Notes under the pieces: model-generated
The model's input: the letters and a program-made list of their open reading frames with translations, nothing else
What the model was told of the DNA's origin: nothing
Database searches by the model: none
In this document: positions 9,943 through 13,061 of the stretch, one piece after another
Layout: the number at the start of each line of letters is the position of its first letter
How positions within the stretch are numbered: position 1 is the stretch's first letter
Position numbers and translations under genes: made by a program
Assembly: GCF_000372525.1 (NCBI RefSeq)
Contig: NZ_AQUR01000107.1
Coordinates: forward strand, 186,001 to 250,000
Source: Cupriavidus neocaledonicus
Lineage (GTDB): Bacteria > Pseudomonadota > Gammaproteobacteria > Burkholderiales > Burkholderiaceae
Reading direction: 5' to 3'
Length of the DNA: 64,000 bases

Positions 9943-10288
9943 CGCAAAGCAGGCTAGGCAACCGCTGCCTGCACCGCAAGGTGCAGGGGGAGGAAAGTCC
10001 GGACTCCACAGGGCAGGGTGTTGGCTAACAGCCATCCACGGCAACGTGCGGAATAGGGCCACAGAGACGAGTCTTGCCGCCGGGTTCGCCCGGCGGGAAG
10101 GGTGAAACGCGGTAACCTCCACCTGGAGCAATCCCAAATAGGCAGGCGATGAAGCGGCCCGCTGAGTCTGCGGGTAGGGAGCTGGAGCCGGCTGGTAACA
10201 GCCGGCCTAGAGGAATGGTTGTCACGCGCCGCGCGCCGCAAGGCGGGCGGGGCGCACAGAATCCGGCTTATCGGCCTGCTTTGCTTCA
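9943..10288 (+). ncRNA. rnpB: RNase P RNA, bacterial type A
   Basis: Catalytic RNA of RNase P, which trims tRNA 5' ends. The diagnostic 5' block GAGGAAAGTCCGGACTCC (9991-10008) and 3' block ACAGAATCCGGCTTATCGG (10256-10274) are present, with internal CTCCACCTGGAGCAA and CCAAATAGG. Helix P1 is an 11-bp perfect pairing of 9944-9954 with 10274-10284 and fixes both ends. TAGACT at 9931-9936 is a plausible -10 element placing the start near 9943. About 346 nt, within the normal range. Confidence 0.93.
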
Positions 10289-11029: not shown

Positions 11030-11057
11030 TTGCATCCGGGCAAACCCTAGGTATAAT
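11030..11057 (+). promoter_or_regulatory. Sigma-70-type promoter for the small RNA
   Basis: TTGCAT (11030-11035), 16-bp spacer, perfect TATAAT (11052-11057). Predicted transcription start near 11064. It is preceded by the tandem palindromes and followed about 160 bases later by a strong intrinsic terminator. Confidence 0.65.
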
Positions 11058-11064
11058 TCGAATC

Positions 11065-11223
11065 ATTGAACGACGGCGCAGACAGCGCGCCAGAGTGCGA
11101 AAGCGAAGCCCACGGCCAAGCCCCCCGCACCGCCCGCATGTTCCTCCGTCGATCTCCAAGTGTCTCCTCCACCTTCCTCCTTTGGTGGATTCAAACCCAA
11201 GCTCAAACGCTTGGGTTTTTTTT
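11065..11223 (+). ncRNA. Candidate trans-acting small RNA with anti-Shine-Dalgarno loops
   Basis: A roughly 159-nt unit bounded by a good promoter and a strong intrinsic terminator (10-bp stem 11193-11202 with 11209-11218, T run 11216-11223), with no convincing ORF. Before the terminator is a hairpin with stem 11168-11173/11184-11189 presenting TTCCTCCTTT in its 10-nt loop. Two more CU-rich anti-SD motifs occur at 11141-11147 (TTCCTCC) and 11164-11170 (CTCCTCC). C-rich loops complementary to ribosome-binding sites are a hallmark of several small-RNA families that repress many mRNAs. Alternative: an attenuated long leader of rplM. I do not recognise the family. Confidence 0.6.
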
Positions 11224-11315
11224 CGCCTGAACAACCGCGCCGGCCCTGCAAGTGCGTTGGGCGGCGCAGAACCGCGCCGAACGGCGTCGATCTTGACGAA
11301 AACTTCAGTCTTTGC

Positions 11316-11345
11316 TTGTGCGCTCGCCGCGCCCGCCAGTATAAT
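11316..11345 (+). promoter_or_regulatory. Promoter of the rplM-rpsI operon
   Basis: TTGTGC (11316-11321), 18-bp spacer and perfect TATAAT (11340-11345). It would start transcription near 11352, giving a leader of about 130 nt before rplM. It lies downstream of the small-RNA terminator, so ribosomal protein expression should be independent of that unit. Confidence 0.6.
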
Positions 11346-12390: not shown

Positions 12391-12572
12391 GTCCGCGGGC
12401 TACGGAACCGGCGCGATGCTGCCGTCATAGCTGGCACGCCGCCATACTTTTGTGGGGTATCCGGCCACTCGCGGCTACAATCACGCCCTGTCGCCGAGGG
12501 CGAGTCCGGCTTGCCCGCGCGATGGCGCCACGGGCAGGCCAGCCTGGCACGAACGAGAGAGGAGCGAGAGTC

Positions 12573-13061
12573 ATGCTGTTTTCCAAGAAGAAGGGCCTTT
12601 CGATCGACACGCTGATTGGCGAAGACAGCGCCATCGACGGCGACCTGGTGTTTGCGGGCGGCCTGCGTCTGGACGGCCGCGTGCGCGGCAACGTGACCGC
12701 GGCGCCGGGCAAGGCCAGCATGCTGGTGGTCAGCGAGAAGGGCATGGTCGAGGGCGAGATCAGCGTCGGCCACCTGGTGCTGAACGGCACCGTCAAGGGC
12801 CCCGTGCACGCCGCCGACCTGCTGGAGCTGCAGCCGCAGGCGCGGGTGCTGGGCGACGTGCGCTACGCCGCGCTCGAAATGCACCAGGGCGCGCTGGTCG
12901 AGGGCCGGCTGATGCCGCTGGTGCAGGGCGAGGTCAAGGCGTTGCCGAACCTGGTCGAGGCGGCGCCGGCGGCCGAAGTGACCGAAGCGGCCGTCGCTGA
13001 CACCGCTGCTGCCGGCGAAACTCCCGCAGCCGATGCCAGTCCCACTGAAAAGGCCGCGTAG
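12573..13061 (+). CDS. Bactofilin (polymer-forming cytoskeletal protein)
   Basis: 162 aa DUF583/bactofilin. The core (about residues 12-115) is a right-handed beta-helix whose turns can be seen as short repeating hydrophobic/Gly units (GDLVFAGGLRLDGRVRGN, then LVVSEKGMVEGEI). The Ala/Glu-rich tail (116-162) is likely disordered. Bactofilins self-assemble without nucleotide and often scaffold peptidoglycan enzymes at the membrane. ATG at 12573 is chosen for its GAGAGGAG ribosome-binding site. A TACAAT at 12476-12481 is a possible -10. Downstream erpA is 100 bases away. Confidence 0.88.
   Translation: MLFSKKKGLSIDTLIGEDSAIDGDLVFAGGLRLDGRVRGNVTAAPGKASMLVVSEKGMVEGEISVGHLVLNGTVKGPVHAADLLELQPQARVLGDVRYAALEMHQGALVEGRLMPLVQGEVKALPNLVEAAPAAEVTEAAVADTAAAGETPAADASPTEKAA

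Follow-up and report, generated by a model that had tools for sequence, protein, structure and literature searches.

The window analysed here, 64,000 nucleotides of Cupriavidus neocaledonicus DNA, contains between osmC and rplM a small RNA, a newly found member of a family already listed in Rfam. Positions 11161-11224 of the plus strand, the expected short form, match the Rfam family RF02278, Betaproteobacteria toxic sRNA, with 68.8 bits (E 8.8e-12) against a gathering cut-off of 50. Very probably it is a trans-acting RNA of the RF02278 type, repressing the mRNAs of uptake and catabolic genes through occlusion of their ribosome-binding sites. The present work established its family membership, its conserved anatomy and an enrichment of complementary sites. 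A previous sequence-only reading of the locus, which proposed an undescribed small RNA, is partly supported by these data. Its discrete sRNA gene with an exposed anti-Shine-Dalgarno sequence is borne out by the RF02278 match, the conserved promoter and terminator, and published relatives. The label "undescribed" had to be dropped, because the RNA belongs to RF02278, relatives of which have been studied in Burkholderia and Bordetella.

The coordinates given in that reading for promoter, motifs, loop and terminator were correct on direct inspection. A -35-like element, TTGCAT (11030-11035), is separated by 16 nt from the -10 element TATAAT (11052-11057), both on the plus strand as are all parts of the RNA. 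The start of the primary transcript, as judged from this promoter, would fall at about 11064, followed by a partly conserved leader (11064-11159) containing the CU motif TTCCTCC (11141-11147). The anti-Shine-Dalgarno seed at the 5' end of the short form, UGUCUCCUCC (site 1, 11161-11170), includes the motif CTCCTCC (11164-11170), and its last bases enter hairpin 1 of the predicted fold (11168-11189). The loop of this hairpin, UUCCUCCUUU (site 2, 11174-11183), reads TTCCTCCTTT in the DNA and is closed by the stem CCACC/GGTGG. As in RF02278, there are two hairpins, the second being an intrinsic terminator with a U tract, and alignment to the model consensus places UGUCUCCUCC ahead of hairpin 1. 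The terminator (11193-11223) has 10 pairs and a T8 tail (stem 11193-11218, T8 11216-11223) and was found by reading, by folding and by the promoter/terminator scan, in which both this promoter and the TATAAT before rplM fell below the 9-of-12 promoter threshold. Both the long form (11064-11223, z -4.53) and the short form (11160-11223, z -5.82) fold better than all of 200 shuffled sequences, and none of the frames overlapping the RNA in a mechanical ORF listing was judged credible. The gene for an OsmC family protein (PF02566; 10342-10764, minus strand) is the divergent neighbour, while rplM (ribosomal protein L13, PF00572; 11481-11909) and rpsI (ribosomal protein S9, PF00380; 11922-12314) follow on the plus strand. 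Corresponding to the separate promoter attributed to the rplM operon, there is a promoter-like TATAAT at 11340-11345 (plus strand) with a weak -35. Also on the plus strand, the window carries a bacterial class A RNase P RNA at 9946-10286 (246 bits) and, downstream of rpsI, a bactofilin gene at 12450-13061.

TTGC, TATAAT and the core GTGTCTCCTCCACC.TCCTCCTTTGGTGGATTCAAACCCA do not vary among 25 distinct sequences (the window plus 24 relatives), and neither does the 5' end UGUCUCCUCC. The single open base of the core, position 11174 in the loop of hairpin 1, is T in the window and C in the other 24. Of the three anti-Shine-Dalgarno motifs originally proposed, two are conserved, and the third, 11141-11147, was rejected as a conserved site: it belongs to variable leader sequence, is exact in just two of the 25 rows (the window and L091), and has five of its seven bases paired in the predicted fold of the long form. 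Among the best 80 of 592 osmC loci, 49 carry TCTCCTCCA upstream of osmC and the other 31 lack this string there. Selection of the 49 by TCTCCTCCA left variation possible at just the first two positions of the 10-mer TGTCTCCTCC, and these are TG in 46 of the 49. The expected conservation of the loop was also observed, CCTCC or CTCCT being kept in 44 of the 49 osmC-linked copies. In 39 of these loci rplM comes next in the same orientation, and in the remaining 10 it was not found within the fetched flank. Cupriavidus lacunae has an identical OsmC protein. At the osmC locus of Candidatus Protistobacter heckmanni, one of the 49, the 5' motif is kept but hairpin 1 and the terminator are lost, and RF02278 has no match anywhere in that genome; this stretch possibly represents decay of the RNA gene.

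The C. neocaledonicus genome has five RF02278 matches, two above the cut-off and three below. All five begin with UGUCUCC, and four have the complete UGUCUCCUCC, the exception being a minus-strand copy (L006) that ends in UCG. The 1.5-kb flanks of the other copies include a PaaA/PaaC-type gene, and a purine-type permease gene directly adjoins one of them. Matches to RF02278 were found in all 23 genomes of the same genus that were searched (two to eight each) and, at least one per genome, in 10 of 16 others of the same order. A set of 49 genomes traced from named loci, partly overlapping the other two sets, has matches in 48, with a maximum of 16 matches in Noviherbaspirillum autotrophicum. Six listed copies lie within about 30 kb in Janthinobacterium sp. 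LM6 (G071 C1:4138297-4168509, L052) and six within about 13 kb in the genome of L046 (G069 C42:193860-207223); these clusters are local amplifications of the sRNA gene.

RF02278 relatives in Burkholderia cenocepacia include ncS03, ncS05, ncS27 and ncS62 (PMC5688073, PMC4603805), which, like the window RNA, have two hairpins, a CU-rich 5' end and loop, a terminator with a U tail, and several copies per genome. For ncS27, published work describes processing to a short form, slower growth upon overexpression, an effect from which the name of the family derives, and predicted targets concentrated at ribosome-binding regions (PMC5688073); a 2024 review adds effects on genes for amino-acid catabolism and carbohydrate transport (PMC10987360). 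We infer a probable orthology between the window copy and ncS27, because the osmC-rplM copy is also present in Burkholderia (L013). The length given for ncS27 is 92 nt; the primary transcript predicted here has about 160 nt. S17 of Bordetella pertussis (PMC11722255) has, as in our reading, a long form and a short one that begins with the CU-rich stretch. Repression there is direct, at ribosome-binding sites, and a sigma-54 activator is among the targets, as it is among the candidate genes below. In the absence of S17, 70 of 92 raised genes had complementary sites at or near the ribosome-binding site. The S17 gene, however, lies between a glycosyltransferase gene and coq7 and not beside rplM. 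In exponentially growing E. coli no toxicity of S17 was seen under the conditions tried, so the family name "toxic" is a poor guide to function. Herbaspirillum seropedicae, another betaproteobacterium, has the RF02278 members Hsnc059, 063, 086 and 107 with transcript data, and in that paper the family is termed exclusive to betaproteobacteria (PMC7011215). Our searches of open-licence literature found nothing on a toxic small RNA in Cupriavidus, on an sRNA upstream of rplM or the sister core sequence described below, or joining sRNA, tripartite tricarboxylate, Shine-Dalgarno and Betaproteobacteria.

The exclusivity of RF02278 is put in question by related RNAs in other Gammaproteobacteria. A class-wide search at E 0.001 gave matches in 37 of 143 genomes, above the cut-off only in the window's own genome and one other of the same order, and weaker (about 29-49 bits) in 35. 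Scanning of 19 weak-match loci gave no RF02278 match at the cut-off, so they are not counted as members, and no Rfam family at cut-off on the sister RNA itself; their flanks hold tRNAs and one RtT element. These weak matches are not noise, because the 19 fetched loci have in common, small variations aside, CTCCTCCATCCTCCTTTGGTGG, the terminator and the T tract. TTGACA lies upstream in 14 of the 19, and 16 have rplM on the same strand, 95-365 nt further downstream. A model built from 11 of the loci matched 163 of 369 class genomes, a count that includes seed and same-order genomes, takes weaker matches uninspected and has rough E-values and no control set; it also recovers the window copy (43.7 bits). 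At the 30 best places of this model, nine of them shared with the earlier 19, rplM is downstream in 20. Combining both sets (L197-L215 and L287-L316), 29 of 40 distinct places are upstream of rplM on the same strand, as in the window, and 11 have no rplM in the stretch examined. In the sister terminator helix, two-sided changes occur at five of eight pairs, a value matched by none of 500 shuffles, which supports this helix; for further pair types, however, 89 of the 500 shuffles did as well as the real alignment. Hairpin 1 hardly varies. Common descent of the sister RNAs and RF02278 is likely, because they share both anatomy and gene order. The occurrence of such an RNA beside rplM outside Burkholderiales seems to be new.

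The RNA 5' end UGUCUCC is exactly complementary to GGAGACA, and genome-wide the arrangement GGAGACA-N3-9-ATG occurs 218 times, a modest excess of 1.6 and 3 fold over the permuted sites GGAGAAC (138) and GGAGCAA (73). Thirty places of each of GGAGACA and GGAGAAC were examined for a frame of 100 codons or more starting at the ATG: GGAGACA had one in 25 of 30, and GGAGAAC in 14 of the 27 places that were located. Of the 25 GGAGACA genes of such length, 20 were submitted to Pfam: 14 are transport or catabolic genes (among them an aldehyde dehydrogenase, a tannase, two AMP-binding enzymes, a dienelactone hydrolase, three MFS carriers and two TctC receptors), one encodes a sigma-54 activator, and the remaining five have other or unknown roles. 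The families of ten GGAGAAC genes were more mixed, in a small and purely descriptive comparison. In a 464-kb sample the count for GGAG+ACA before ATG was 9 of 26, which is not outstanding among A-rich triplets (AGA, 6 of 15); the signal, weak in this sample, is clear only when genes are sorted by family. A pattern for the 16S 3' end had no match in this draft genome.

Sorting by family singled out the TctC receptors, with 114 matches in this genome. Among the best 70 of them, GGAGACA lies 3-9 nt before a possible start in 29, and GGAGAC lies 3-10 nt before one in 45. The preceding base is A in 21 of the 29, so that these matches extend to the 8-mer AGGAGACA. The site was present in 15 of the first 30 TctC genes, compared with 5 of 311 baseline genes (Fisher p 3.5e-14), the baseline consisting of frames 150 codons or longer from a 464-kb portion of this genome, TctC genes included. 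The clearest target signal is that of the single-stranded 5' UGUCUCC, which reaches past a plain Shine-Dalgarno complement. The earlier suggestion that the RNA could repress many mRNAs agrees with this enrichment and with the published relatives, and what seems to be new is the number of genes of this bacterium with a matching site.

As TctC is a paralog family and AGGAG is itself a Shine-Dalgarno sequence, the GGAGACA sites might have nothing to do with the sRNA and be simply sequence inherited among paralogs, or a strong ribosome-binding site of a generic kind. We regard this as improbable. The sequence preceding the motif (columns -15 to -2) is close to random, with a pairwise identity of 0.23-0.32, and two genomes of the same order without a detected RF02278 copy (no hit at E 0.001 among the candidates scored, 98 of 337 in one and 98 of 203 in the other) have GGAGACA in none of 29 TctC genes (p 4.6e-6). 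GGAG is present in 20 of these genes and GGAGAC in one. The 29 were 14 of 29 matches in one genome and 15 of 141 in the other, of at least 170 in the two. A third genome without an RF02278 match has no TctC gene, and one RNA-bearing genome has a single TctC match, which was unscored. This is the pattern to expect where sites are maintained for their match to the sRNA; it is a correlation between one RNA-bearing genome and two without.

The position of the RNA raises a different alternative, namely that the hairpin-terminator is a cis-acting attenuator of rplM-rpsI and the short RNA a by-product of termination. A ribosomal protein operon is a plausible target of attenuation, and the RNA lies near rplM in the same orientation in both beta and gamma relatives. 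Nevertheless, this is highly improbable given the four further matches elsewhere in this genome (one above the cut-off, three below), the up to 16 matches in some Burkholderiales, the second promoter-like TATAAT between terminator and rplM in the window, and the discrete transcripts reported from Burkholderia. A trans-acting sRNA might also be coupled to ribosomal protein transcription through limited read-through, since the link to rplM is widely kept (29 of the 40 inspected gamma places and 39 of the 49 beta loci). This dual use is rather unlikely: synteny alone is no proof of read-through, the gene order of ribosomal operons is conserved for other reasons, and rplM is missing from the fetched stretch at 11 gamma places and 10 beta loci.

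For a trans-acting repressor of the RF02278 type, the following mechanism may be proposed. Transcription from the sigma-70-type promoter at 11030-11057 would begin at about 11064 and stop at the terminator at 11223, giving about 160 nt in all, and processing would probably remove the leader 11064-11159 and leave about 64 nt starting at UGUCUCC. The unpaired 5' end UGUCUCCU would pair with AGGAGACA at ribosome-binding sites, the CU-rich loop would do so with plain Shine-Dalgarno sequence there, and the start of translation would be blocked. The targets would be many mRNAs for uptake and peripheral catabolism, foremost the large set of TctC (Bug) receptors. Expression, processing and target repression are known from relatives and by analogy may carry over to this organism; after the findings on ncS27 and S17, the same device in the window is the simplest reading. 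The loop may act on its own, and Hfq may take part.

We give an even chance to a broader proposal, in which an ancient, unnamed anti-Shine-Dalgarno double-hairpin RNA upstream of rplM is common to many Gammaproteobacteria and Betaproteobacteria, RF02278 is its amplified betaproteobacterial branch, and the ribosome-binding sites of Burkholderiales TctC genes evolved to match its 5' seed. If this is true, one sRNA family would be a common brake on dozens of uptake systems. The matched sites define a concrete, testable and large candidate regulon among TctC receptors. With the sister RNA beside rplM, a family so far called betaproteobacterial would reach into many other families of Gammaproteobacteria and be linked to a ribosomal operon. 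At some loci two or three sister RNAs are found in tandem within about 300 bases (G372 C3:141779-142057; G265 C27:1129-1336; G233 C83:5201-5390).
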